From positions 62,001-126,000 of the forward strand of contig JAJKHS010000126.1 of assembly GCA_021154885.1 (NCBI GenBank): 64,000 nucleotides of DNA, given 5' to 3'. This DNA is from Thermoanaerobaculum sp. Lineage in GTDB: Bacteria; Acidobacteriota; Thermoanaerobaculia; Multivoradales; UBA5704. A program made the position numbers and the translations under genes. Each line of letters opens with the position of its first letter. The first letter of the stretch is position 1. This document shows positions 1 through 13,611 of this stretch, one piece after another. The notes below the pieces were generated by a model. The model saw only the letters and a program-made list of their open reading frames with translations, did no database searches and was not told the DNA's origin.

Positions 1-670
1 CATTGCGGCCGTGGAGACCCTCGTCCAGGGCCAGAGTGAAGACGGAGACCTTGTTGCGGGCGAGCTCTTTCATCACCGGATTGTCGGTGCGCAGGAAGTT
101 GCGATACCGGTCGAGCTCCTCCTTTTCGAGCGTCCCTTGAGATTTTCGGTTGATCTTTCCCAGGTCCAGCTCGCCGTCCGAGATCAGCAGGAGGTTCTTC
201 TTGGCCTCTTTGTGCTGGGCGTTGAAGAGATCGGCCGCCGTGCCGATGGCGCTGATGTAGTCCGTCCGGGAGCCGATGTCGCCGGGGATCTGCTCGTTCC
301 ACCAACCTTCGCCCTGAATGTCGCTCCATTGCACGGGCTGAACTGGCAGCTTCTGGATGCGTCGCGTCTGGTTGCCGAACACGTACACGTCCAGATAGTT
401 GTTCTCGTTCTGGTTCTTCTCGCTGAGTGAAGCCACCAGAGTCTGCATCATCACGAGGATTTCGTTGCGCAGCCGGTAACCGGTGGTCCCGAGCGCCTGG
501 CTCTGCTCGCGGTCCCGCTGCTCCGAGCTCAGGGAGACGTCCAGCAGGACGATCCAATATTGCGCTTCAGGCTCCTTCGAATCCTTTTTGGCGCCGCGCT
601 CCTGGGCCAGGGACCACGGCGCCAGCAAAAGCGCCACGAGGAGAGCCGCAGCGGTTCGGCGATAGCTCAT
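1..670 (-). CDS. exported vWA-domain protein (3' end beyond window)
   Basis: Only the first 223 codons are present; the gene runs off the left edge. Residues 1-22 form a signal peptide (basic MSYRR, a Leu/Ala core, then SLAQ). A von Willebrand A domain follows, with the MIDAS motif DVSLS near residue 46, a RTDY threonine and LLISDGELD, so metal-dependent ligand binding looks intact. Export suggests it acts outside the cytoplasm. Its ATG overlaps the stop of the upstream TPR gene as ATGA, so the two are probably translationally coupled. Function is not known beyond the fold. It lies downstream of the VMAP/tubulin cassette on the same strand and could belong to that operon, but it is outside the direct repeats that bracket the cassette. 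Confidence 0.85.
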   Translation of the reverse strand, partial: MSYRRTAAALLVALLLAPWSLAQERGAKKDSKEPEAQYWIVLLDVSLSSEQRDREQSQALGTTGYRLRNEILVMMQTLVASLSEKNQNENNYLDVYVFGNQTRRIQKLPVQPVQWSDIQGEGWWNEQIPGDIGSRTDYISAIGTAADLFNAQHKEAKKNLLLISDGELDLGKINRKSQGTLEKEELDRYRNFLRTDNPVMKELARNKVSVFTLALDEGLHGRN

Positions 671-3516
671 CGATTCTCTCCCTTTCCTTCCGAGGCCGGC
701 GGCTCCGGCAATTCCTTGTAGTAGCGGTCGTAGAGAACCTCAGTTTTGAAACGCTGCCATCGGGTCATATTGCGCTTGGCGCGCTGCCGAAGCTCCTCAA
801 TCTCGCGCCGCCGGCGGGTCCGAATCCTGCTTCCCTCCAGGTCCAGGGCGCGCACCGTCTGGTCCATCTCCTTTAGAGCGTAGAAGGGCTTTCCCTTGTT
901 CTGGCGGAGAAGATCGCGCAACTTCTTGACTTGATCGTCCAACTCCTTCTCCTCTGCCCTGAGCGCCTGCTTTCGCTCCACCTCCCGCTGCCGGGCCTCC
1001 ACAAATGAGGGATCCCACCGCTGGTGGATCTTCAGGAGGTCGTCCGCGGCCTTCTGGTTCTCCTCGGAAGGGTCTGCGAGGAGCTCGTCGATCTGGCCGC
1101 GCAGCAGCGCCAGGGCCTCTTTCCGTTTCTCCTGGACCTCGTCCTCGAGATCGGGATCCCGCACGGCCGCGAGCAACTGGAGGGCCCTTTTCGGATCGGG
1201 ATCGTCGCCGAGAAGGACCTCCTCGGCCTCGCCCAATTTGTCGTAGCTACGTTTCCGTTTTTGATTGTCGTATCCCTTGGAGACTTGGCGCAGCTCTTTG
1301 CTCAACTCGCGGGCGGGCTTGAAATTGGGCTGGAGAGAGAAGAGACGCTTGAGCTTCTCCGTCAGAGCGTTGGCCGTCTCGGGCGTCCGATCCTTCTCCA
1401 GTTGCACCCGCAGGGCCTCGACGAAGGCCGACGGGACCCACTCGAGAGCTTCCCTGGTGTGTGGGTCGCGGCGATCGAGCCTTTTCATCTCAAGAGCCCA
1501 TTCCAAGGCCCGCTCGGGATCTCCAGCGTCACGCGCTTCCATGTAGGCGTAGAACGCCTTGTCATAAGGATTGGAATCCTGTTTGTCCTGCTCAGCGCGG
1601 CGCTCGGCGATTTTGATCTCCCGGCGGATCTCTCGGGCGCCGGCGTGATCAGGATCGAGGGCCTCGATCTTCGCGCATTGCTTGGCAGCGTCGTCGAGCC
1701 GTCCACGTTCGAGAAAGCCCTTGGCCTCCTCGGACCATTGCTCGATGAGCTTTTCCTCAGCCATCCGCAATTGGTGGCGAGCCCTCGACTCTTCCGGCAC
1801 CGCCGCCAGGATGGCGTTGGCGATTCCCTGGGCTTCGTTCCACTGCTGGGCTTCGAGCGCTTCCTGAGTCTGCCGGAGCAACTGACTGATCAGGGCTTGA
1901 CGACGGGCCGTGAGCCGTCCATCGCCAGGGTCTTTCTCGAGCGCCTCGACGCAATGGCGGAGCGCCTCCCGGTCGTTCCGGTCCCGCAACAAAGCTTGCA
2001 ATTCGGTCTGCAGCTCTGCGGGTGCGGACTCGAGGAGCTCGTCGATGAGCTGATCGAGGCTTTCGACGACATGGGCATCCTCCGCCAGCAATGCGGCCTC
2101 CCTGCCATCCTTCCAGCAGGTGGCCGCCTCCTTCCACTTGCGTTTCTTGAAGAAGGCTCGGCCCTTCGTCCGCAGGCTCTCCGCCTGGCTGGTATAGACA
2201 CGGCGCCGCCAGCCGGGGAGGTCCCGCGAGGCGAACCACTCGATGTCGGAGAATTCCAAAAGATCGATGGCGACCTCGTATTCTCCACGCCCCAGCAAAT
2301 AGGTGATCTGCTGGCCCCAGGCTTGACGGCACACCTGGCGGATGTGCTCCGCGGCAGGGCCTTCGCGGACCGCGCCGTTCGATGGGGCCGGAGAGGGCGG
2401 CTCCTCCTTGCCGGTCTCGTTCTCGCTGGCCCCTTCCTCGCCGGCGGTCTTCTCCTGGGCAGCTTCCGGTTCAGGAGTCTTCTCCAGACCGGGAATCTCT
2501 TCTTCCTCCGGAGTCTCCGTTTCTCCGTTCCGGAGATCGTCCTCCACCCGCTGCCGCGCCGCAGTGATCAGCCGTTGGAGAGCTTCCCAGCCTTCTTCAG
2601 GTTTATGGCTGCGAATCCGTTCAGCAGCGTGGTTAAGGGCAGCCGTCACGATCTCGTCGGCGAACGCCCGGTCGGGAAGTATGGGAACCAGTTGGATGAG
2701 CTCGTCGTAACCTCGCTTGGCGCCTTCGAAATCTTCGGCATCCCACTTGTTGCGAATCTCTTCGAAACGGGATCGAACCATCCCCACCAGCGCGCGCGTT
2801 TTGGGAGCCTTGATCCGCTCCTTCAGATCAGGATGGAGGCCCGCCGAAGCGTCGAGCTTCGAGATTCCTTCCTGCCATCGACCCTGGTCCACGAGGCTGA
2901 TGCCCTCGTCGTAGACCGCGATGGCCTCTTCGATGTTGACGATCTCGCGCTTCAACTCGAAGCCGAAGCCCGATGGCAGGTCGTCGATCCACAGAAAGAG
3001 CGGCCGGTCCAGAGGCCCGGTCTCGGCCCAGCCCGCGCCAGGGTTGGTGCCGTCGAGCGCCTGCGCGAAGATCGAGCGGGCGATCTCGCTGGCCTTCTTG
3101 CCGGAAGCCTCCAGCTTGAGGTCGAGGAGCACGGCCGGCAGGCTCCCCTCATTCCCCAGCTTCTCGCAGAGGATGCCCAGGTTGTAGCTGGCGGGCCGGC
3201 AGCCCTCGGCCTGCCTGGCCGCATCCGAAAGGTCCTTGAACGCCATCCGGGATTCGCCGAGGCAGGAGAAGACGACCCCCCGGTTGTTCAGGGCAATGGG
3301 CCCGGGCCAGCGATACAGCCAGGCGGTCTCGAAGCACACCAGGGCTTCGCGGTACCGCCCCTGGTAGGCCAGGAGATTGCCCAGCCGGAAGGCGCTCCGG
3401 GCATCGGCCGCGTCCTCCTTGAGCGCGTCGCGAAAGATACGCTCCAGCTCCTCCCAGCGCCCCTGCTGGAAGTACTGGCTGACCTGGCTGGCGAGAATGC
3501 CGTGAACGGGTTGCAT
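667..3516 (-). CDS. large TPR-repeat / coiled-coil protein
   Basis: A 949-residue protein without an obvious signal peptide. TPR-like helical hairpins fill residues 1-115 (for example GRWEELERIFRDAL and GRYREALVCFETAW). An acidic Glu/Pro-rich linker lies near 345-395, then further TPR units (GEYEVAIDLLEF, GRLDDAAKQCAKIEALDPDH) and a charged coiled-coil tail to the C-terminus. This architecture indicates a protein-protein scaffold. It overlaps the vWA gene by 4 bp and starts 264 bp after the stop of the tubulin-like gene. A direct-repeat copy lies in that gap, so co-transcription with the cassette is plausible but not proven. No enzymatic motif is visible. Confidence 0.85.
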   Translation of the reverse strand: MQPVHGILASQVSQYFQQGRWEELERIFRDALKEDAADARSAFRLGNLLAYQGRYREALVCFETAWLYRWPGPIALNNRGVVFSCLGESRMAFKDLSDAARQAEGCRPASYNLGILCEKLGNEGSLPAVLLDLKLEASGKKASEIARSIFAQALDGTNPGAGWAETGPLDRPLFLWIDDLPSGFGFELKREIVNIEEAIAVYDEGISLVDQGRWQEGISKLDASAGLHPDLKERIKAPKTRALVGMVRSRFEEIRNKWDAEDFEGAKRGYDELIQLVPILPDRAFADEIVTAALNHAAERIRSHKPEEGWEALQRLITAARQRVEDDLRNGETETPEEEEIPGLEKTPEPEAAQEKTAGEEGASENETGKEEPPSPAPSNGAVREGPAAEHIRQVCRQAWGQQITYLLGRGEYEVAIDLLEFSDIEWFASRDLPGWRRRVYTSQAESLRTKGRAFFKKRKWKEAATCWKDGREAALLAEDAHVVESLDQLIDELLESAPAELQTELQALLRDRNDREALRHCVEALEKDPGDGRLTARRQALISQLLRQTQEALEAQQWNEAQGIANAILAAVPEESRARHQLRMAEEKLIEQWSEEAKGFLERGRLDDAAKQCAKIEALDPDHAGAREIRREIKIAERRAEQDKQDSNPYDKAFYAYMEARDAGDPERALEWALEMKRLDRRDPHTREALEWVPSAFVEALRVQLEKDRTPETANALTEKLKRLFSLQPNFKPARELSKELRQVSKGYDNQKRKRSYDKLGEAEEVLLGDDPDPKRALQLLAAVRDPDLEDEVQEKRKEALALLRGQIDELLADPSEENQKAADDLLKIHQRWDPSFVEARQREVERKQALRAEEKELDDQVKKLRDLLRQNKGKPFYALKEMDQTVRALDLEGSRIRTRRRREIEELRQRAKRNMTRWQRFKTEVLYDRYYKELPEPPASEGKGENR

Positions 3517-3628: not shown

Positions 3629-3671
3629 TCAGGTCATCCTTGGGGACCCTGATGCCGGAATTTACAGGCTT
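3629..3671 (+). repeat. 43-bp direct repeat, copy 1, flanking the VMAP/tubulin cassette
   Basis: This stretch matches 11,637-11,680 in the same orientation at 39 of 44 aligned columns (four substitutions, one 1-bp gap). It lies just 3' of the tubulin-like gene, while the other copy lies just 3' of the Trypco1 gene, so the pair brackets exactly four genes. It could be a recombination or attachment scar, or a shared 3' structural element; part of it (TCAGGTC with GACCCTGA) can pair. The rest of the 3,517-3,779 gap shows no gene. Confidence 0.7.
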
Positions 3672-3779: not shown

Positions 3780-6700
3780 TCAACGGAAATGGTCGCGCTG
3801 CAGCTCGTCGCGGAGGGCTCGGATCTCAGCATGGGCCTCGTAGATATCGACGCTCAAGAACGGGTCCGAGGTTGTTTCCCAGCGTTGGACGGCTTCCTGC
3901 TCCCGGTTCTGAAGATCCTCGATTTGCCGCTGGATACGGGTACGCCATTCGACATCGTCCTGCTTACGGGTCTCTATCTCGACTTCCACGAGTCGTGCCG
4001 TGGATGTGCAGAAGTTGCGGTAAGCCTCCCACCTGGAGCGGCCCAACGGCAAACCATCGTTCCCCACATATCCTCGTCTTGCCTCTTTCCGCACCCACCC
4101 CAAGATCTCCGCTGCGCTGAAGAGGTAGAGCCGGCGGACCTCCTCCGGGTCTTCTCCGGCAAAGTCAAGGCGGGTGACCGAGCGCCGGTCGTTGAAGAAG
4201 TGCTGGTCGTAACGCTGCTCATCTACGACCGATGCCATAAGGCTCGTGCGGTACGCAGGTAAGCGCTTGAGGCCGGGGAGAGATATGCCATGCTCGGTGC
4301 GGAAGATCGGCACGTAATCGTCCCGCTGCTCGTCGACCGGCGAGATTTGCCGCCAGCTTTCCCGCACTGTTCTGTAGAGCGTAGAATCCCGAGGGACGCC
4401 GATGGCCGAGATCTCCAGCCGGTTGTTCCTCATAATGTAGGACTCATGGATCTCCCAGTTTGCCTGAGCCCGCGAAAGCAGTACGTCGACCTTGGCCTTG
4501 TATCTTTCGCTGGGATACTCGAAACAATTGGCGAGAAGATGGTCGCAGGTCATACCCGGCTCGTTCTGGAAAAAATGATGGATCGCCTCGGTGCAGAGAT
4601 CATAGAAGCGGACGTTGACCTCCTTCGGCTCCAAAGGCGCCCATGTCCGCGATTCTTCGATGAGCTTACGGAGAACGTCGTGCAGGAGACGGTCCTGGTT
4701 CGGGCCGATCAGGGCTTTGCGGAACCATTTCAGGGGACCCACGCTGGTCCGCGCCCGCCGGATGTGGTAGTACGATTCTTCGTCCCGTGCTTCCGCCAAG
4801 CTGAGCATGTTGAGCATGTCCTTGATCCGCATCCAGGGAGCGATGAACTCTTGCTGAACAATAAAAGCCAACTTTTCGATGCGGGAAAGCTGGTCGCGAT
4901 ACACCACGGCAGCAGTCTGGTTGCGCACGTGCTTGCTCCAAGCTTCGTAAGCCCGGGCCAGGAGCTGGTTCAGGTCTTTGCCCACGACGTTGCCCTGCTC
5001 AAGTCTATCGGCGGTTGAGCGATGCTTCTCTGCGATGCTCTCGAGCTCCTGCGCTTTCTCGCGGATCTGAGACTGGAAGATGCGGAGCGCCTCGATGCAG
5101 CGCGCGAGGTAGCGCAGGTGGCGGTCGAGGCCGGCCGGCCGGAGAAGCGGGGAGCGGATCTGGTCGGAAAGGTGTCGGCGTAGCTCGCCTTCGTCGAAAG
5201 GGTCCTCCTGGCTCAGGCGCCTGCGCTCGCGGCGCTGCGCGTCGTGGGCCTCCGCCAGCAACCGTTGCAGCTCAGTCTTGCCTTGCTCCTGCTTGCGCTT
5301 GTCGCCTTGCAATAGGATGTTGATTGTCGTCAAGTCGAGATCGAGTGGCGGCAGGATTTCGTCGATGCGTCGGAAATCAGTGATCTGCATCCGCTCCCTG
5401 AAACTCTGCAGGTCTTCCGGCGCCACCGCCTCGGCTTCCTCTACGGACTGGAGAAGCTGCTTATAAAATTCCCTTGCGAGATCCGAGGCCAGGGATTCGC
5501 CGAGCAGCTCTTCTGGCAACTCGATGCCGAGCACACCGTAGCTGCTGTAGCAGCAGACTCGCCCCAAGGCGTCCCGGGTCGACTTCCGCTGGCCCGCCAT
5601 GTTGATGATGCCTTCGGAGATCTTCTGGCCAGCTTGCGAAAGAGTCAGTAGCGTGATGGCTTCACCGACCACGGCGGTCAGCGTCTCCATGTCCGTCGCG
5701 CCGCCTTGCGGAAGGCCGCTCAGCAGGTAACAATGATCGAAAGGCGCGCCCTGGGAGATCTCGGGGCGGTTCTGCACGTATTCCACAATCCAGGGATCGT
5801 CGCTCGTGGCGTTCATGTAGTGGTCCAGTTCCTGAAGAGCCGCATAGGCGTTCGCCTCCAGGGTCTTCATCACCACCGGCTCGGCGCGGAACGCCTCCGG
5901 CAGCACCAGATGGCCGGTCACTGTCGCCGTGCGATTTGTGTGCTCCTCGGCCCAGCGCCGGAGATCGAACGCGAGATCGAGGAAGATGCCTGAGCCGGTG
6001 CCGCCGCAAACGGAGCCTATGAGATGGATGTCGATGTCTGCTTCGAGGTTGATCCGAATCCCTGTTTGCTGGTAGAAACGAATGGCGAGATCGCTGTCCG
6101 TCACTGCCGTCAAGGCTTCCTGGATGGCGGCCTTTACGCGGTCCCTGCGGTAGAAGTAACAGAGCCGGCCGATGGGGCGAATGCCGCTGGTGCCGAAAGC
6201 CACATGTTGGAAGCTCAGCCGCGGCGGCAACCACTTCTCCCAGTGGGGGAAGGCTTGCCCCGAGACGATGCTCGCAATCACGCTCTGGGCGTTGAAACCG
6301 CCAAGATAGATGTACTCGGAGTTGTCCACCAGCCGGGGCTCGCGGTTGTCCTGGAATGTCGTATCGAAAGCGCGGAACACCACGTAGTGGTGTCTCGGCC
6401 CCACGAAGTGCTCGATCCGGGCCCGCACCGCCTTGGCTGCCGCGGTTCCAGTACCGCCGACCGCAATGATCAGCGTCGGTCGGACGAACCGGGTCATGCC
6501 TTTCCATGATCGCCCTTCGTCGGGGACCAGGGGCGGCGAACTCTCTTCGATGACAAGTTCTATTCCTACCTTCTTGATAGCTGTGGTTGCCTCGGCGAAT
6601 GGATCGTCCTGAATGAGATCCTCGGCAGGCTCCTTGACACCGACTGACTCCGTGTCTACCAGCACGCCTATAGAAGGTTCCGTGACAAACCGTGAAAACT

Positions 6701-8288
6701 CCCCACCGACGTGCCACAGGATTTGAGAGGCGATTCTGGCGAATGGCTCCTGGTCGGACGGGATGAACTTCCCAGCGAGGGCCGGATTGGCGAGGATCGC
6801 CCGGAAACTCTCCCACCAGCCGAAGCGGCCGAAACGCTTCTCAAAAAATTGGGTTGCGCGCTCCAGAACTCGCACGATCTCCGACCGCGGGAGATTGTCG
6901 AGAAGCCTACGTCTCGCCTCATCGGAAAAACTGTAGATTACCTCCTCGGGATCCTGTGCATCCTGGTCGACTTCGAGGAGGCCGCAAAGGAGCAACTCCG
7001 CTTCGTTTTCGTGAGAAGCCTCCGGAACCATCGTCTCTCGGATTACCTGCAAGAGCGGCAAAGTCAACACTGGTGAGGCGGCGGCGTAATAGGCCAGTCT
7101 TCGAGTCAGGGGAGAGGCCGAGCGAAAGAAGCTCTCGAGTACGGCTTCGGGGTCCGGTAGAGCTCCTGCCACATCAGGATGCTTGATGAGGTCAAGCTCG
7201 AACCCGGGAGTCCAGTCTCCTCTGCCTGTGAACCATCGCGCCCAACGTCTCAAAGAACCCGGATGGAGGCTGATGATGGGGACGGCCAATCGGTTCGAGC
7301 TCCGCTCGCGATTGCGAAGGCCGAAGCCGAACTCATACCTGCACGACTCCAGATGGGTTGCCCTCCGGAAATCGGTGAGCCGAAGAAAGCGGACAGGGCG
7401 TGCGAACCGCAAGGCGGTCCGCGGCCACAGGCTCTCTGGCAGAAGCTGAAGGAGGGCCACAGATCCGGATTGCCGAAAGCGGTGGAGCAGCCAGTGGTAA
7501 CTCCCATCATACCAGGCGTCCCCCACGCAGTCTGTGAGAACCAGGACGAGCTGTCGGTCAAGGGGGTCAAAGATCTCGCGCCACGAACGCCGACGAGACT
7601 CATTCCGAGAGAGCCCGGAGGAGAGGTGTACTTCCCCTCCCTCCATCCTCAAGCTCCAAATACGGATATCTCGAAAGGCTCCCAGCCACGCCATGAGCTG
7701 AATGACCTCAGCCACAGTGTGCTGCCAGAGGTCCGTCGACCGGCCACGGTCAACAACCAGGTGCAAGGTGAGCCAACGTTCCTGCGCCGGAAGGAGGGCC
7801 GGAACCCAGATCTCTTCTTGAGCAATTCGGTGAGCCGTTGCCCGTTCGGCAATGATTGATCGTCGAGTCGAGGGCTCTCGCCGCGTCAGCGGGCGGAGTG
7901 CACGCGCCAGATCCAGCTTGTGCGGAAGAGCGCTGGCACGAGGAATTCGAATGCTGCTCCCAGGCCGACCGCCGGAATCAGAGAGACGATCAACCCAGGG
8001 GAAAATCGCTGTTCGGGTTGAGTCTTCCCGAGCCCGGTCGTGGGGCGGAGCCGGGTCCGAGGGAGCCGTTGTGCCGCCCATTGCTGATGGCTGGTGGTGG
8101 GCCTCTTCTGGAAGCGATGGAGCCGATGGAGCCTCCGAGCCTTGAGAGCTCGTCGGCTCGAATTGCGGAAGGTACTGAGCGAGCCAGAGAATGTCAGCGA
8201 CTTCTTCTACCAGCCCGGGAATGGAGGCCTCGGACTCACCACGTAACTTCCAGACGGCTCTGGCCAGCTTGCCGAGCGAGGTTTTCAT
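3780..8288 (-). CDS. SAV_2336-type vWA fused to tubulin-like (Tub_2) GTPase domain
   Basis: A 1502-residue fusion. Residues about 120-560 match the SAV_2336 N-terminal type: LDLARALRPLTRREPS, then ERWLTLHLVVDRGRSTDLW (near 179) and LVLVLTDCVGD (near 250), a vWA fold whose MIDAS is degenerate (DRGRS instead of DxSxS). From about residue 600 comes a tubulin/FtsZ-like domain with an N-terminal glycine loop LIIAVGGTGTAAAK and the tubulin signature SVCGGTGSG near residue 760; the remaining 700 residues are helical and charged. In VMAP ternary systems the vWA protein works with MoxR and VMAP; having a tubulin-like GTPase on the same chain is unusual. The start overlaps the MoxR stop (ATGA), indicating coupling. 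A GTP-dependent, perhaps polymerising, role is inference. Confidence 0.85.
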   Translation of the reverse strand: MKTSLGKLARAVWKLRGESEASIPGLVEEVADILWLAQYLPQFEPTSSQGSEAPSAPSLPEEAHHQPSAMGGTTAPSDPAPPHDRAREDSTRTAIFPWVDRLSDSGGRPGSSIRIPRASALPHKLDLARALRPLTRREPSTRRSIIAERATAHRIAQEEIWVPALLPAQERWLTLHLVVDRGRSTDLWQHTVAEVIQLMAWLGAFRDIRIWSLRMEGGEVHLSSGLSRNESRRRSWREIFDPLDRQLVLVLTDCVGDAWYDGSYHWLLHRFRQSGSVALLQLLPESLWPRTALRFARPVRFLRLTDFRRATHLESCRYEFGFGLRNRERSSNRLAVPIISLHPGSLRRWARWFTGRGDWTPGFELDLIKHPDVAGALPDPEAVLESFFRSASPLTRRLAYYAAASPVLTLPLLQVIRETMVPEASHENEAELLLCGLLEVDQDAQDPEEVIYSFSDEARRRLLDNLPRSEIVRVLERATQFFEKRFGRFGWWESFRAILANPALAGKFIPSDQEPFARIASQILWHVGGEFSRFVTEPSIGVLVDTESVGVKEPAEDLIQDDPFAEATTAIKKVGIELVIEESSPPLVPDEGRSWKGMTRFVRPTLIIAVGGTGTAAAKAVRARIEHFVGPRHHYVVFRAFDTTFQDNREPRLVDNSEYIYLGGFNAQSVIASIVSGQAFPHWEKWLPPRLSFQHVAFGTSGIRPIGRLCYFYRRDRVKAAIQEALTAVTDSDLAIRFYQQTGIRINLEADIDIHLIGSVCGGTGSGIFLDLAFDLRRWAEEHTNRTATVTGHLVLPEAFRAEPVVMKTLEANAYAALQELDHYMNATSDDPWIVEYVQNRPEISQGAPFDHCYLLSGLPQGGATDMETLTAVVGEAITLLTLSQAGQKISEGIINMAGQRKSTRDALGRVCCYSSYGVLGIELPEELLGESLASDLAREFYKQLLQSVEEAEAVAPEDLQSFRERMQITDFRRIDEILPPLDLDLTTINILLQGDKRKQEQGKTELQRLLAEAHDAQRRERRRLSQEDPFDEGELRRHLSDQIRSPLLRPAGLDRHLRYLARCIEALRIFQSQIREKAQELESIAEKHRSTADRLEQGNVVGKDLNQLLARAYEAWSKHVRNQTAAVVYRDQLSRIEKLAFIVQQEFIAPWMRIKDMLNMLSLAEARDEESYYHIRRARTSVGPLKWFRKALIGPNQDRLLHDVLRKLIEESRTWAPLEPKEVNVRFYDLCTEAIHHFFQNEPGMTCDHLLANCFEYPSERYKAKVDVLLSRAQANWEIHESYIMRNNRLEISAIGVPRDSTLYRTVRESWRQISPVDEQRDDYVPIFRTEHGISLPGLKRLPAYRTSLMASVVDEQRYDQHFFNDRRSVTRLDFAGEDPEEVRRLYLFSAAEILGWVRKEARRGYVGNDGLPLGRSRWEAYRNFCTSTARLVEVEIETRKQDDVEWRTRIQRQIEDLQNREQEAVQRWETTSDPFLSVDIYEAHAEIRALRDELQRDHFR

Positions 8289-9274
8289 TCCTGATTCAGC
8301 TCGTGAAGGACAATATCCAGCACTTGCTCCATCTCGTGCCCCTCCGGCGCGTGCTCCCCCGTGACGATAAAAATAGCGTTGAGGAGTTGATCGGTGGCAA
8401 GGATGGTGACCCCATCCGCCCGCCTACGGAGGAAATCCTTGATCACTTCGTCCACCTTTGAAGGATCGATCCCGGCGAAATGCGCGTCGACAATTTCTGC
8501 AAGCTCCTTGGGGTTCGGCGGCTCGATGGTGAGGCTGAGGCAACGCCTCCGCAGAGCAGGCGGCATCTCACGCTCGGAATTGCTCGTGATCACGACCAGA
8601 GGGAAGGTGGAACAGCGCACCCACCCCCCCTCAATAGGGACCCGATCCGCCTCCGACCGTCTGCCCGCCGGCATGACCCTGACTTGGGGCGTTTTCGACT
8701 GGATCCGGACGAGCTCTGGAATCTCGAACTCTCCTTCTTCGAAGACATGAAGGAGATCGTTGGGTAGATCGATATCCGCCTTGTCAATCTCGTCGATCAG
8801 CAGAACCCTTGGTTTGTCTCCCGGCAGTAGAGCAGTGCCGAGAGGGCCGAGTTTGATGTATCGGCCCAGATCCTCGGTCGCGCTACCATCCACCCCCCCC
8901 TCACTCGCAGCCTTGATCTCCCACAGCCGGGCGAGAGCATCATAATGGTATAGGCCCTCTTGCAAGGTCGATCGGGAGTTGATCGGCCAGCGTAGAACCG
9001 AACCGAGCTTGAGCTCGTATGCCATTGCGTAGGCTAAAGTGGATTTCCCGCTTCCCGGTGGTCCTGTGATGAAAAGAGGTCGTCTCAGGTAGAGTGCCGC
9101 GTTGACCAGATCCACCTCATTTTTGCGTGCCCTAAAGGTCTTGCCACGGGGATCTACCCCATCCTCGGTCTGATCGCGTCGGGCTGCGAAGTCTCGCCAC
9201 GGTGGAGGGGCGGGAAGTTCCGCGATTCCGTCGTGGGGCTTGCCGCTGCCTTGGTAAATCTTCCAATTATTCAT
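8285..9274 (-). CDS. MoxR-family AAA+ ATPase of the VMAP ternary system
   Basis: An AAA+ ATPase of about 329 residues. Walker A (GPPGSGKST) lies near residue 73, Walker B (VLLIDEIDKAD) near 158, then a sensor-1-like VVITSNSERE and an arginine-rich PPALRRRCLSL. The N-terminal GKTFRARKNEVDLVNAAL and this order fit MoxR-type ATPases, chaperone-like remodellers that act with vWA partners. The ATG at 9,274 is preferred because an excellent GGAGG lies 8-9 nt upstream; the longer frame to 9,346 would overlap the VMAP gene by 41 bp. It sits 31 bp after the VMAP gene and overlaps the vWA-tubulin gene by 4 bp, so the three should be made together. Confidence 0.9.
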   Translation of the reverse strand: MNNWKIYQGSGKPHDGIAELPAPPPWRDFAARRDQTEDGVDPRGKTFRARKNEVDLVNAALYLRRPLFITGPPGSGKSTLAYAMAYELKLGSVLRWPINSRSTLQEGLYHYDALARLWEIKAASEGGVDGSATEDLGRYIKLGPLGTALLPGDKPRVLLIDEIDKADIDLPNDLLHVFEEGEFEIPELVRIQSKTPQVRVMPAGRRSEADRVPIEGGWVRCSTFPLVVITSNSEREMPPALRRRCLSLTIEPPNPKELAEIVDAHFAGIDPSKVDEVIKDFLRRRADGVTILATDQLLNAIFIVTGEHAPEGHEMEQVLDIVLHELNQE

Positions 9275-9305
9275 GAAGAGCCTCCATTTCGGTTTTCGTT
9301 GCGCT

Positions 9306-11132
9306 TCACGAAACTCTCGCCCCGGGAGTTTTGGATTTCGCTTCACGGAATCGTTCTTGCTGCTCTCGCCCCGGGAAGGGCCGCGTCGGATCGTCCCAGA
9401 GAAGAGTGAGACAGTGGCCGATCTGGTCCGGCTTCATGTAGTCACTTCGGCGCTTCTCCCAAACCCTTCTGGGGAGTTGATTCAAAGGCTCACCCTCGAT
9501 CCACGAGCGGAAGAGACTGAAAAGATCCTCTTCGGAAAGGACTTCCTTTCTCGGCCAAAGCGCAATTGGGATTCCAACCTGAAGCAAGGCTCTCACTCTC
9601 TGGTCCTTCACGCTTGGCGACTCTAAGAGGACGGCGCAGACGACTCCAGTATTCTCCAGCCGAAGGGACAGACGTTGTTGGTAAGCTAGATCGCGAGTCA
9701 GACAAACCGCCGATGGAAGTGGGTCGACAGGTAGCTCCCCATTGCTTCCTCGGAACAATAGGCAGCGGAGATCTGGATCACGCTTCATCGCGTTCCATCG
9801 CCTAGTCAGAAGCTCTCTCGAAGAGAAATCGTTGTCGCGCTCGAGAGAGCGAACTACGACGACATTTCTTACCCCAATGGGCAAAGGCTCCTCAAAGACC
9901 TGTTTTAGCTCCCATCTGTCGACCTCCATTCCGAGAAGATGTATGGGAAGAAGGAATTCAATTTGGGTTTCAAGCGTACTAGCTCCGTCATCGCGGAGAA
10001 TTTCTGCAGTCTTGGCGAGTATGCGATACAGGCTTTCTCCGCGCCTTTCGGCACTCAGAGTCGAGGTTTCATGAAAAATGCCTCCAGGTTGTCGCGTGCC
10101 GAGTAGATGAGCGTTTACAGTACAGCGAGGGTCCTTTGCATCATCCTCTACCCACTTTTCAGTTTCAATACTTATGAGCAGGTGGTACGTCCCCGATGAT
10201 CGGGGTAGGGGACCCACGCCCAGGGAAACGCTGCACTGGGGCGGGTACGAAGTCACCATTTCGACCTTTTCTCTCCACCCCTGAAGAGTTTCGCGCGCCT
10301 CCCCTTGAGAGCGATCTTCCAACGCCCGAACGAAGCATAGCAAAGGAAGTGCCCCCGAGTAACTTTGGTGGGGGGCATCACTCAAGCTCCAGATCGCCTC
10401 CTGCAGCAACTCCGAAGCGCTCTCTATGCCTGGAAGACTGGGCCAGTCGCGTGGGCAGCAAAGTGAATAAAGATCGCGGATCTCTTTCGAAGAGAGGAAG
10501 ATTGACTGGCAGATGTGGATCAAGCCGGGCAGTGAGGTTGCAAGTTGTGGAGAGAGCGACACCATGGAAGCGCGCGCGAGAGCCTGTCGCAGCTTTAAGG
10601 AGGGCATGATGTAGGCTTCCGTGTTACTCCCCTCTTCCTTGCCTACGAGCATACCCAGGGCGGCACGACGCTTGGGGCACCACGCAGGAGTACCGCTGAA
10701 GCCTCTCTGAACCTGTTCGCTTCCCATCGTCTCGATGCCATATAGGCCACCCATCACTGCAGCCTTCAGTACCCCTCGAATTGGAGCTCCTTGCGGACGG
10801 GGACCAGGGAATCCCACGGCTACGAATTCGTCCCCTGCTTCTGGGTCTGCAATGGCAACTGGAATGCTCCCGGATGGGGCGTCATCCCTCAACTCTAAGA
10901 CCGCCACATCGTCACGATCAGGGTTACCCAGGTAGAGGATGTTCGCTAGTCTTGATACCATGCCGCTGTCTTTCACGAAGACAGCGGCGACGACTGAACG
11001 AGCGCCTACCACGTGAGCGCAGGTCAGGAGCTGACGCTCGGTGACGAGGAACCCCGCACCGAGGATCTTGGCATCAGGCTCCGGGCTGTGAATCCTAGCC
11101 ACAGCCGCCTCGAAGGTGGGCCTTTCAGGCAT
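9306..11132 (-). CDS. VMAP protein: trypsin-like peptidase, EAD-like and VMAP-C regions
   Basis: A 608-residue cytoplasmic protein. Residues 1-190 are a trypsin-like serine protease with an apparently complete triad: His40 (LLTCAHVVG), Asp75 (DRDDVAVLEL) and Ser146 (QRGFSGTPAW). A helical segment at about 200-280 resembles an effector-associated domain, and the C-terminal third ends with VGIPIALWPRKEV, typical of the vWA-MoxR-associated protein C-terminal domain. In published VMAP ternary systems this chain carries the effector, here a peptidase, and is thought to be controlled by the AAA+ and vWA partners. A -10-like TATACT ends 7 nt before the ATG and no Shine-Dalgarno sequence has room, so the mRNA may be leaderless. 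First gene of the leftward operon. Confidence 0.88.
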   Translation of the reverse strand: MPERPTFEAAVARIHSPEPDAKILGAGFLVTERQLLTCAHVVGARSVVAAVFVKDSGMVSRLANILYLGNPDRDDVAVLELRDDAPSGSIPVAIADPEAGDEFVAVGFPGPRPQGAPIRGVLKAAVMGGLYGIETMGSEQVQRGFSGTPAWCPKRRAALGMLVGKEEGSNTEAYIMPSLKLRQALARASMVSLSPQLATSLPGLIHICQSIFLSSKEIRDLYSLCCPRDWPSLPGIESASELLQEAIWSLSDAPHQSYSGALPLLCFVRALEDRSQGEARETLQGWREKVEMVTSYPPQCSVSLGVGPLPRSSGTYHLLISIETEKWVEDDAKDPRCTVNAHLLGTRQPGGIFHETSTLSAERRGESLYRILAKTAEILRDDGASTLETQIEFLLPIHLLGMEVDRWELKQVFEEPLPIGVRNVVVVRSLERDNDFSSRELLTRRWNAMKRDPDLRCLLFRGSNGELPVDPLPSAVCLTRDLAYQQRLSLRLENTGVVCAVLLESPSVKDQRVRALLQVGIPIALWPRKEVLSEEDLFSLFRSWIEGEPLNQLPRRVWEKRRSDYMKPDQIGHCLTLLWDDPTRPFPGREQQERFREAKSKTPGARVS

Positions 11133-11136
11133 TCCT

Positions 11137-11147
11137 TATAGTATAGT
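11137..11147. promoter_or_regulatory. shared palindromic -10 region of divergent promoters
   Basis: The 39 bp between the VMAP and Trypco1 starts contain TATAGTATA, a near-palindrome. On the minus strand TATACT (11,145-11,140) is 7 nt from the VMAP ATG, giving a leaderless transcript. On the plus strand TATAGT occurs at 11,137 and again at 11,142, leaving a short leader with GGGGAGGA before Trypco1. The two polymerases could not bind at once, which would tie the two transcripts together. No good -35 box is visible. Confidence 0.5.
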
Positions 11148-11174
11148 CGAGAGAACCTTGGGGAGGAAGCGGTG

Positions 11175-11534
11175 ATGAAGCGGCTGGTGAAGTTTGAGTT
11201 GGAGGACGGGTCCCCCATGTACATGGAGGTGGAGGAGCAGCAGGAACGCGGCGGGATGCAGAGGGTCGGCGGGGATGAGGAGGAACAGAAGCAGCAGCGC
11301 GAGGCTGGACGCTTCGAAACGGCGCTTGCGCGGATCAAACCCGCCGCCCAAGCGGTAGTGAATGCCTTCCGCGAGGTCAATACCCCTGACGAAATCGCTC
11401 TCGAATTAGCCTTGACCTTCAATACCAAAGTCGGTGCCTTCGTATTCTCTTCAGATACCCAAGCCGTGTTCAAGGTATCCCTGAAATGGAAGGCGCGTGG
11501 TGCTTCGGGCTCGAATCAGGCCGATGGCCACTAG
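11175..11534 (+). CDS. Trypco1 (CU044_2847-type) trypsin-co-occurring protein
   Basis: A 119-residue protein. The N-terminal strand segment (KRLVKFELEDGSPMYMEVEE) and the later block FREVNTPDEIALELALTFN followed by KVGAFVFSS and FKVSLKWK match the small trypsin-co-occurring domain 1 family, which is repeatedly found beside trypsin-like effectors of VMAP-type systems. The ATG at 11,175 sits behind GGGGAGGA; a GTG one codon earlier is also possible. It is transcribed divergently from the VMAP operon through a shared promoter region. Its likely partner is the trypsin-like VMAP protein, perhaps as sensor, inhibitor or substrate; this is inferred from family co-occurrence, as no catalytic residues are visible. 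Confidence 0.8.
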   Translation: MKRLVKFELEDGSPMYMEVEEQQERGGMQRVGGDEEEQKQQREAGRFETALARIKPAAQAVVNAFREVNTPDEIALELALTFNTKVGAFVFSSDTQAVFKVSLKWKARGASGSNQADGH

Positions 11535-11636: not shown

Positions 11637-11680
11637 TCAGGTCATCCCTCGGGACTCTGATGCCGGAATCTCACAGGCTT
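11637..11680 (+). repeat. 44-bp direct repeat, copy 2
   Basis: Second copy of the sequence at 3,629-3,671, same orientation, 39 of 44 columns identical. It lies 102 bp after the Trypco1 stop. The distance between copies (about 8.0 kb) spans the four cassette genes and nothing else. The 11,535-11,687 gap holds no other recognisable feature. Confidence 0.7.
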
Positions 11681-11687
11681 GTGGATC

Positions 11688-12140
11688 TCAAGGCTCTCGC
11701 ATATAGGAGGAGAGATGCCCATCGGTCGACCAGATGTAGACTCGCCGGCTGGGATGGAGGGAGCACTGGCGCTGCCACTCTTTGAGGATCGTCAGGTCGG
11801 CAAGCCCGGAGCCGCTGCCAGCCCAGCCGGGGAATTCCTCCAGCCACTCGAGCAGCGATTCCGGCTCTCTGAACAGCGGTGTCGGAGTGAAGGGAGAGAG
11901 GCCTCGGAGGGCTTGCTGCACGAACCGGACAAAGTTCTCCGCCGTGGAGCGGCGCTGCCGCCCATCCCCGTTCTGGCCGATATGATTCCCGGTCTCGATA
12001 ATGGCGCTCACCGGGAGAAGAAACGTTTCCTTCTTGAGTTTCCGCTCCATCTGGGCGTAAACGTCTCGGTGATTCCCGCACCGGTTGGGAACCCGGAGGA
12101 TTTCGCAGAGAATGGACGTGTCGACCAGACAGATGCTCAC
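11688..12140 (-). CDS. PIN-domain protein (putative RNase)
   Basis: A 150-residue protein with PIN-fold acidic residues: SICLVDTSILCEIL at the N-terminus, a conserved Glu in SAIIETGNHIG, GLADLTILKEW and a C-terminal WSTDGHLSSY. PIN domains are Mg-dependent single-strand RNases, commonly toxins. It overlaps the upstream AAA ATPase gene by 4 bp (ATGA), so the two form a coupled pair. No classical antitoxin lies beside it; the ATPase may be the sensor or controller. An AAA-PIN pair suggests a defence or stress module rather than a simple VapBC, but that is inference from the pairing. Confidence 0.75.
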   Translation of the reverse strand: MSICLVDTSILCEILRVPNRCGNHRDVYAQMERKLKKETFLLPVSAIIETGNHIGQNGDGRQRRSTAENFVRFVQQALRGLSPFTPTPLFREPESLLEWLEEFPGWAGSGSGLADLTILKEWQRQCSLHPSRRVYIWSTDGHLSSYMREP

Positions 12141-13492
12141 GATGACTTGACCCGTCGCCGGAAGTCCGAGATCCAGGCAAGGTTCTTCTCAACCTTTGCC
12201 GCGCTGTCTCGCTTGTCTGGATCTTTGAGGAACCGGTCGAGAATCCCTCGCGTGACCAGCCCTCCGAGAGGACCCTGGGCGACGAGCTCGGGATAGCTCT
12301 CCAGGTCTTCGAGGCGGAGCAGGCGGCTGTCGCCCTCCTCCGGGTCGCGATAGCAAGCCACGACGTGTGGAATGGCGTCCAACGGAAGGGCGTCCAGGAG
12401 GGCGGGGTTGTGGGTCGTGAGCAGGACGCGGAGTCTGCGTTCCTGAGCGACGCGCTGGATATTCTGCAGCAACAGCTCAGCCCGATTGGGATGAACCCCG
12501 TTGTCAATTTCCTCGATGACGACCATGGAGCCTTCCGGCACTGAGAGGAGGGCCGCAGCGACGGCCAGGGTCCGGACGGTGCCGTCTGAGAGAAGAGCGG
12601 CCTCCCGGGGGCTCGCAGTACCGCCGAAGGTCTCATGGAGTCGAACCATGACCTCGCCGCGCTCAGTCTTGAGAAACGAGATGTCCTGGATGTTTTGTTC
12701 GGGCAGAGAGCGGATGAGCTCGAGGACCGCTTCCTTCTGGTCTCCCTCTTCGATGAGGCGGTAGAGGACCGCGGAAAGTGCGGCGCCGTCGCCTTGGAGC
12801 TTCTTCTCCTGGATGAAGCTGTAATTCCGCATCCGGCGGGGACTGGGGTCCAGGAAAAGGATGCCCTCGAGGTTCTGTCGAAGGCGAGAGGCCGCTGCCG
12901 GAATGAGGATCTGGGATTCTGGATGGCTGGCTGCAAAGCGAGCGGGGGTTGCCAACTGAGTGAAGACTGCCTGCTGGTCGACGCAGGAGATCCGCGGCCT
13001 CTTTCCGCCTTTGGCGCTGCCTTTGCCGAACTTGGTATAGGCCACTTGGACTTCATGGTTGTCGGGACTGGCCTTCTCGACGACTTCATAGAGCGGTTGG
13101 CTCGTCGGGGGATCCTCGGTGGCCAGCCGCTCCTCGACGATCTGCAGGCCGTCCTCCCCCACCCTCAGGGTGACCGCAAAATCGAGAGCCGGCCGGAAAC
13201 CCCCTTCAGACCGGGACTCCTTGCGATCGAGCTGGCAGCCCAGAGAGAGTTTCTTGCCTTGCCGATGAACGAAGTCGTTGAGCGTCCCTCGCAGGCTCAG
13301 CTCCTGCTCGCGGATTGCGTAGTGGATATCCCCCAGCCGGCGGCCTGAAGCCATCCAGGAAAGGAGCTGAATCGCCTCGATCGCATTGCTCTTGCCCGAG
13401 GCGTTGGCGCCGATCAGCAGCGTCAGCGGAGCCAGCGGAAGGGTGGCCTTCCGGAAGCTCTTGAAGTTCTCGATGCTGAAGCTCTGGATCAT
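12137..13492 (-). CDS. AAA family ATPase (AAA_21/SMC-like), partner of PIN protein
   Basis: A 451-residue ATPase starting at MIQSFSIENFKSF. Walker A (GANASGKSN) is at residues 28-36; an ABC-type signature-like LLSDGTVRTLA lies near 315 and Walker B (MVVIEEIDNGVHP) soon after; LRVLLTTHNPALLD contains the H-loop-like histidine. This order matches the OLD/AAA_21 group of SMC-like ATPases found in many phage-defence operons. The longer frame to 13,537 adds 15 residues that do not fit the family, so the ATG at 13,492 was chosen, though its Shine-Dalgarno (AAGG) is weak. It is coupled to the PIN gene downstream by an ATGA overlap. The target is unknown. Confidence 0.82.
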   Translation of the reverse strand: MIQSFSIENFKSFRKATLPLAPLTLLIGANASGKSNAIEAIQLLSWMASGRRLGDIHYAIREQELSLRGTLNDFVHRQGKKLSLGCQLDRKESRSEGGFRPALDFAVTLRVGEDGLQIVEERLATEDPPTSQPLYEVVEKASPDNHEVQVAYTKFGKGSAKGGKRPRISCVDQQAVFTQLATPARFAASHPESQILIPAAASRLRQNLEGILFLDPSPRRMRNYSFIQEKKLQGDGAALSAVLYRLIEEGDQKEAVLELIRSLPEQNIQDISFLKTERGEVMVRLHETFGGTASPREAALLSDGTVRTLAVAAALLSVPEGSMVVIEEIDNGVHPNRAELLLQNIQRVAQERRLRVLLTTHNPALLDALPLDAIPHVVACYRDPEEGDSRLLRLEDLESYPELVAQGPLGGLVTRGILDRFLKDPDKRDSAAKVEKNLAWISDFRRRVKSS

Positions 13493-13611
13493 GGGTGTAG
13501 CCTTGTTCTCGGTGACTCGACCTCTAACTGCCGCCAAGCCTCCTTCTCCCTGTATTCAAGCACAGGAGCTGCGGCGAGACAATTCCTGGGCCAACCTGGA
13601 GCCGCCCTCGC

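Follow-up and report, generated by a model that had tools for sequence, protein, structure and literature searches.

A VMAP ternary system of Thermoanaerobaculum that probably captured the tubulin-like protein of a neighboring gene cluster, tentatively as bait

The vWA protein of a VMAP ternary system in Thermoanaerobaculum sp. (Acidobacteriota) has probably taken up a duplicated neighboring tubulin as its variable C-terminal module. That the captured tubulin serves as bait, or decoy, is in our judgment the likeliest reading, one that we hold tentatively and at slightly less than even confidence, with an assembly-forming effector as its main rival. The locus lies in a draft assembly (161 contigs, 8.2 Mb), of which a stretch of 64,000 nucleotides was analyzed (hereafter the window, to which coordinates refer). 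It is a suspected bacterial self-defense system, by its sequence features a canonical VMAP ternary system with a divergent Trypco1 gene, and the only VMAP system in this genome. All four genes were found where the preliminary description had placed them: VMAP (608 aa; 9306..11132), the MoxR-type AAA+ ATPase (353 aa; 8285..9346), and the vWA::tubulin fusion protein P0001 (1502 aa; 3780..8288) follow one another on the minus strand as overlapping genes, with the start codon of the fusion gene overlapping the MoxR stop codon, so that the strict 5' VMAP-MoxR-vWA 3' order of VMAP ternary systems is present; Trypco1 (120 aa; 11172..11534; PF19493, 83.2 bits) is encoded on the plus strand, divergent from VMAP.

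The VMAP protein consists of a trypsin-like domain (residues about 22-164; Trypsin_2, PF13365, 36.4 bits), a weak VMAP-M1 match (PF19963; 15.6 bits, below cut-off), and VMAP-C (residues 362-582; PF20028, 108.6 bits, cut-off 27). The trypsin residues H40, D75, and S146 (GFSGTP) can be read straight from the sequence at the positions claimed for them; with these catalytic residues in place, VMAP itself could do the killing. The MoxR protein matches AAA_5 (41.6 bits) and carries Walker A (GPPGSGKS) and Walker B (LLIDEID) motifs. Its N-terminus reads W28xIYQG (WKIYQG) and P48PWRDF (PPWRDF), conserved in four of four relatives and in agreement with the WxhapG and PsWRxa definition for VMAP systems; Kaur et al. 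(2020; PMC7159879) describe these two motifs as unique to the MoxR proteins of such systems. Together with the SAV_2336-type vWA and the gene order, VMAP-C and the MoxR motifs bear out the identity proposed earlier. PADLOC returned no convincing defense-model match for VMAP, MoxR, or the fusion protein, which is weak evidence because its library is apparently without VMAP systems; promoter and terminator scans gave nothing above chance, and an Rfam search gave no match.

Both profile searches suggested for the two ends of the fusion protein were positive. SAV_2336_NTERM (NF041121) covers residues 28-488 (6825..8207, minus strand) with 371 bits (cut-off 200), and Tubulin_2 (PF13809) covers residues 606-942 with 163 bits (cut-off 27). 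The former corresponds to a vWA domain with helical N- and C-terminal extensions followed by variable C-terminal domains, as in VMAP ternary systems; relatives carry caspase, FGE-sulfatase, or TPR domains in place of the tubulin. Compared with the [D/E]xxx[D/E]xxxa motif, the N-terminal extension reads EEVADILWLA, with the acidic pair at a spacing of 4 and a leucine, not an aromatic residue, at the last position. An intact DxSxS MIDAS is absent from P0001, which reads DRGRS, and the MIDAS is variable in relatives too; Kaur et al. (PMC7159879) do not list it as a defining feature of VMAP systems. A model of the N-terminal half, built from seven sequences only (pLDDT 61), gave no PDB match better than E 0.001, the best being the vWA domain of TRAP (E 1.8e-3) and NorD of NorQD (E 2.0e-3, probability 1.00), with phosphoribosyltransferases mixed among the lower-ranking matches. 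Within the NorQD complex, NorD is the vWA protein that pairs with a MoxR ATPase; as no match passed E 0.001, the assignment of this half leans more on its sequence family than on the model.

The halves are connected by a low-confidence linker (residues 541-595; 6504..6668, minus strand; pLDDT 31-46). What follows is a tubulin-like half (residues 595-1502; 3783..6506, minus strand) made up of a GTPase domain, a long helical part, and a second alpha/beta part. An AlphaFold2 model of this half, with 24 relatives in the alignment (mean pLDDT 75, pTM 0.61), matched CetZ1 (4b46; E 4.5e-5), CetZ, and FtsZ (2e-4) in the PDB, with matches ranging to 6.6e-4 at probability 1.00. The structure prediction thus yields a tubulin fold of the CetZ/FtsZ type and, with PF13809, upholds the claim that a genuine tubulin-fold GTPase module is joined to the vWA component. 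The extent given in the preliminary description needed widening: the tubulin homology spans about 908 residues, well beyond the Pfam match of about 340, and the set of modules reaches past the interval 3780-11534, since the next cluster includes a stand-alone tubulin that closely resembles the fused one.

This stand-alone tubulin, one of three Tubulin_2 proteins in the genome, is a protein of 930 aa (167 bits) encoded on the same strand 5.7 kb downstream of the fusion gene, just past the window edge (G000:C126:57333-60125; L004:11333-14125). It is 76% identical to P0001 residues 595-1497 over 910 aa, and the two copies share 81.7-81.8% of their DNA sequence. With dN 0.15 and dS 0.80 over 908 codons, and dN/dS about 0.1 in the GTPase region (first 450 codons), the pair is held under purifying selection. 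In a tree of the GTPase domain the pair is recovered with 100/100 support on a stem of 2.36, with tips of 0.10 and 0.083 changes per column, and every other aligned Tubulin_2 protein is at most about 28% identical to it.

Departures from the family consensus were counted at positions that differ between the copies and show a majority residue in the family. The T1 (GGTGT) and T4 (GGTGSG) loops are intact in the fused copy, which also retains all 15 columns invariant across 24 sequences; in the segment that we align with the T3 loop of FtsZ, the family consensus GAG is changed to GTS, accounting for two of its five departures. Over residues 1-345 the fused copy departs five times from the consensus and the stand-alone copy not once (two-sided p about 0.06); over all 911 residues the counts are 16 and 7, a weak skew, and a simple relative-rate count against L047 is even (29 to 23). 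The T3 change is suggestive, but no proof, of altered GTP sensing; given the intact T1 and T4 loops, the fused copy could still be a GTP-binding, active effector.

The stand-alone gene belongs to a cluster encoding, in order, a TPR protein (949 aa; 667..3516, minus strand), a vWA protein (836 aa), the tubulin (930 aa), and a TM protein (659 aa); farther on lies a divergent gene for a Ser/Thr kinase. The cluster is of the FtsZ-like-1 type and matches in composition the FtsZ-like-1/vWA operons that Makarova and Koonin (2010; PMC2875224) described, which regularly include vWA proteins and kinases. The ternary module and this cluster are adjacent and run in the same direction, separated by a 263-bp gap. 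An RHS-repeat-like ORF of 1824 aa, possibly a polymorphic toxin, lies near the cluster (L004:1192-6666). A second cluster (G000:C77:155725-168410; L005) encodes the third Tubulin_2 protein (1270 aa), a vWA protein of 933 aa, and a protein of 1327 aa that has TM segments and starts with the tubulin-like sequence VIVVGVGRFG.

A cassette found in Nostocales and in other Acidobacteriota encodes a vWA-TM protein, a stand-alone tubulin of about 910 aa, and a TM protein of about 1000 aa. The third cassette gene encodes a degenerate Tubulin_2 relative with TM segments (L047:12728-15499, L034:12794-15841, L059:5206-8418), matched to the active tubulins by profile comparison (99.5%, E 3e-23) and by Pfam below cut-off (21.5 bits); in the literature searched we found no earlier statement of this nature. 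The arrangement suggests an active/inactive tubulin pair that would act at the membrane. The 659-aa TM protein and the TM protein of the second cluster were considered as members of the degenerate family (A6) and rejected, being collinear but without a significant match, and the profile comparison of the vWA protein vWA2 with the vWA protein of the conserved cassette was likewise not significant.

The base composition changes along the ternary module. GC at fourfold sites is 0.56 in VMAP, 0.68 in MoxR, and 0.63 in the vWA half, followed by 0.78 in the tubulin half and 0.89 in the stand-alone tubulin, against a background of 0.889 +/- 0.061 (lowest 0.725) in 30 genes from nearby or from the second cluster's contig. 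VMAP, MoxR, and the vWA half look foreign by composition, and the tubulin half closer to the host. The best change point inside the fusion gene falls at residue 579, in the linker and beside the domain junction, 16 residues ahead of the start of tubulin homology (log-likelihood gain 12.6, reached in none of 2000 permutations). In a genome of the same family (G398) the vWA protein ends in a caspase domain without such a step (0.63 and 0.61), indicating that the C-terminal module is exchangeable; this locus (L060:3337-10893) encodes VMAP, MoxR, and a vWA protein with Peptidase_C14 in place of the tubulin, a module exchange within one family. Ternary genes at L062 are also low in GC (0.57-0.63, neighbors 0.83), whereas those at L061 are not; the low GC may come from relaxed codon use in conflict genes and not from transfer.

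The module is bracketed by a 33-nt direct repeat (91% identical; 3629..3661 and 11637..11669, plus strand; start-to-start spacing 8008 nt), which has exactly two copies in the 8.2-Mb genome and none in 146 other genomes of the class, ruling out a dispersed element or a conserved regulatory motif. With a paralog next door, a GC change at the junction, and the bracketing repeat, the ternary system probably captured a duplicate of the neighboring tubulin. Most simply, the region would be accessory, and the ternary module would have arrived by lateral acquisition beside a resident cluster and been joined to a duplicated tubulin. On its other side the module adjoins a candidate phage-defense pair, a PDC-M07B-like protein (150 aa; 11688..12140, minus strand; PADLOC PDLC04395, 172.5 bits) and a PDC-M07A-like AAA_21 ATPase (466 aa; 12137..13537, minus strand; PDLC04393, 587 bits; PF13304), which together span 11688-13537.

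No other SAV_2336-Tubulin_2 fusion was found in four genomes of the family, in 149 of the class, or in 396 of the phylum, the best few candidates per genome being scored for the latter two, nor in phages and viral contigs, nor in plasmids searched with the whole protein and with the tubulin half. Actinobacteria, in which VMAP systems are common, were covered via plasmids only. A scan of genome contigs with the tubulin alignment, using two peptide patterns, gave 15 matches, all of them stand-alone tubulins from Acidobacteriota or cyanobacteria. Two genomes of the same genus (82% and 93% complete) are without the ternary vWA protein and without the TPR cluster. The possibility raised at the outset, of a mis-joined fusion absent in relatives, is therefore correct in its second half, as the fusion is seen in the source genome alone, but nothing about the gene points to a mis-join. 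An assembly artefact, a false join of the vWA gene to a tubulin copy across 82%-similar repeats, would suit the single occurrence and the draft state of the assembly with its 161 contigs; we regard it as very improbable, given that the tubulin half differs from the other copy along its whole length (81.8% DNA identity), that the 1502-codon frame is open, that start and stop codons overlap as in operons, that the module contains no N, and that the joint is located exactly where effectors normally attach.

The preliminary description knew of no account of this fusion, which is contradicted by Kaur et al. (2020; PMC7159879), whose section "Domains related to cell-division" mentions, in one sentence and there without an origin, rare FtsZ/Tubulin-superfamily effector domains in VMAP ternary systems. 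With those systems the locus shares its gene order, the MoxR motifs, a SAV_2336-type vWA with variable C-terminus, a trypsin-VMAP, and Trypco1; what sets it apart is that its tubulin is paralogous to the one in the adjacent cluster and that the composition breaks at the joint. The stand-alone paralog sits in a cluster like the FtsZ-like-1 (FtsZl1, Tubulin_2 PF13809)/vWA operons (PMC2875224), with vWA, tubulin-like, and membrane proteins and a kinase nearby, whereas the fused copy is part of a VMAP system and attached to the vWA partner of MoxR. The GAP1-N2 GTPase-centered systems of Kaur et al. (2020) likewise combine tubulin-like and vWA genes in predicted conflict loci; here VMAP and MoxR occur instead, and no GAP1 or DO-GTPase was detectable by Pfam among the cluster proteins tested. 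As far as the literature searched shows, what is new is the presence of source and copy side by side with a seam between them.

Two models assign the sensing and killing roles differently. According to Kaur et al., as summarized in PMC10907252, sensing falls to VMAP, transmission to MoxR, and the effector role to the vWA C-terminus; the model of PMC10907252 itself makes the vWA C-terminus the sensor and gives the effector role to the VMAP peptidase, with a bait logic for systems diversified by DGRs. Under the former, VMAP would sense the invasion, MoxR would remodel the complex, and the trypsin would cleave the vWA protein; once freed or unlocked, the tubulin would form GTP-dependent assemblies or poison the host FtsZ-like-1 polymer as a dominant-negative subunit. 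This is possible, in our estimate, as Kaur et al. list FtsZ/Tubulin domains among the effectors and argue for superstructure formation, and as the low-confidence linker, the intact T1 (GGTG) and T4 (GGTGSG) loops, and the purifying selection are all in keeping with it; it sits less easily with a tubulin half that copies, under constraint, a resident protein already made by the cell, with the altered T3 loop, and with a cleavage site that is only hypothetical. A merger for regulation, by which the ternary module would belong to the membrane FtsZ-like-1 machine and MoxR-vWA would assemble or disassemble tubulin polymers in normal physiology, could draw on the vWA proteins and kinases regular in FtsZ-like-1 clusters (PMC2875224) and on the adjacency and shared direction of the two gene sets; we judge it improbable, since the trypsin and Trypco1, the exchangeable C-terminal modules of relatives, and the defense-candidate neighbor indicate conflict, and the two gene sets are separated by 263 bp.

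With a constrained copy of a resident protein and an intact VMAP trypsin, the model of PMC10907252 would fit better, in the form of an integrated decoy. Paralogy, the composition break, and the altered T3 loop agree no less well with the capture of a resident protein, as bait or dominant partner, than with the GTP-gated or filament-based sensing or assembly proposed earlier. The locus would share with the DGR-diversified systems the vWA C-terminus as sensor and the VMAP peptidase as effector, the bait here being a captured cellular protein and not a hypervariable C-type lectin. As bait, the fused tubulin would mimic or co-assemble with the stand-alone tubulin; the trigger would be an invader or toxin engaging tubulin, or a disturbed tubulin assembly. 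MoxR remodeling of the vWA::tubulin protein would then license the VMAP trypsin, with Trypco1 as a putative adaptor or regulator, and the licensed trypsin would cleave cell targets and so stop the infection. The bait model is supported by the close paralog nearby, the exchangeable vWA C-terminus, the intact trypsin residues, the T3 change, and the PDC-M07A/B neighbor; against it are the intact T1 and T4 loops, the smallness of the 5-to-0 count, the ambiguity of low GC, and the occurrence in one genome only. In its full form, in which the neighbor's cytoskeletal protein was copied as bait and the trypsin of VMAP responds to an invader's attack on the FtsZ-like-1 machine, we consider it rather unlikely.

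Kaur et al. (PMC7159879) argued that other cellular systems are where ternary systems recruit their C-terminal modules. A source and its copy are seldom found together; here the putative source, the fused copy, and a compositional seam lie within about 15 kb, so that bait and effector become directly testable against each other with two defined partners. The locus ties together two uncharacterized sets, the VMAP systems and the FtsZ-like-1 clusters, and looks like a snapshot of conflict systems acquiring new parts. If true, the integrated decoy would parallel, in bacteria, the integrated-decoy receptors known from plants, and the decoy reading would make the FtsZ-like-1 cluster a phage target.
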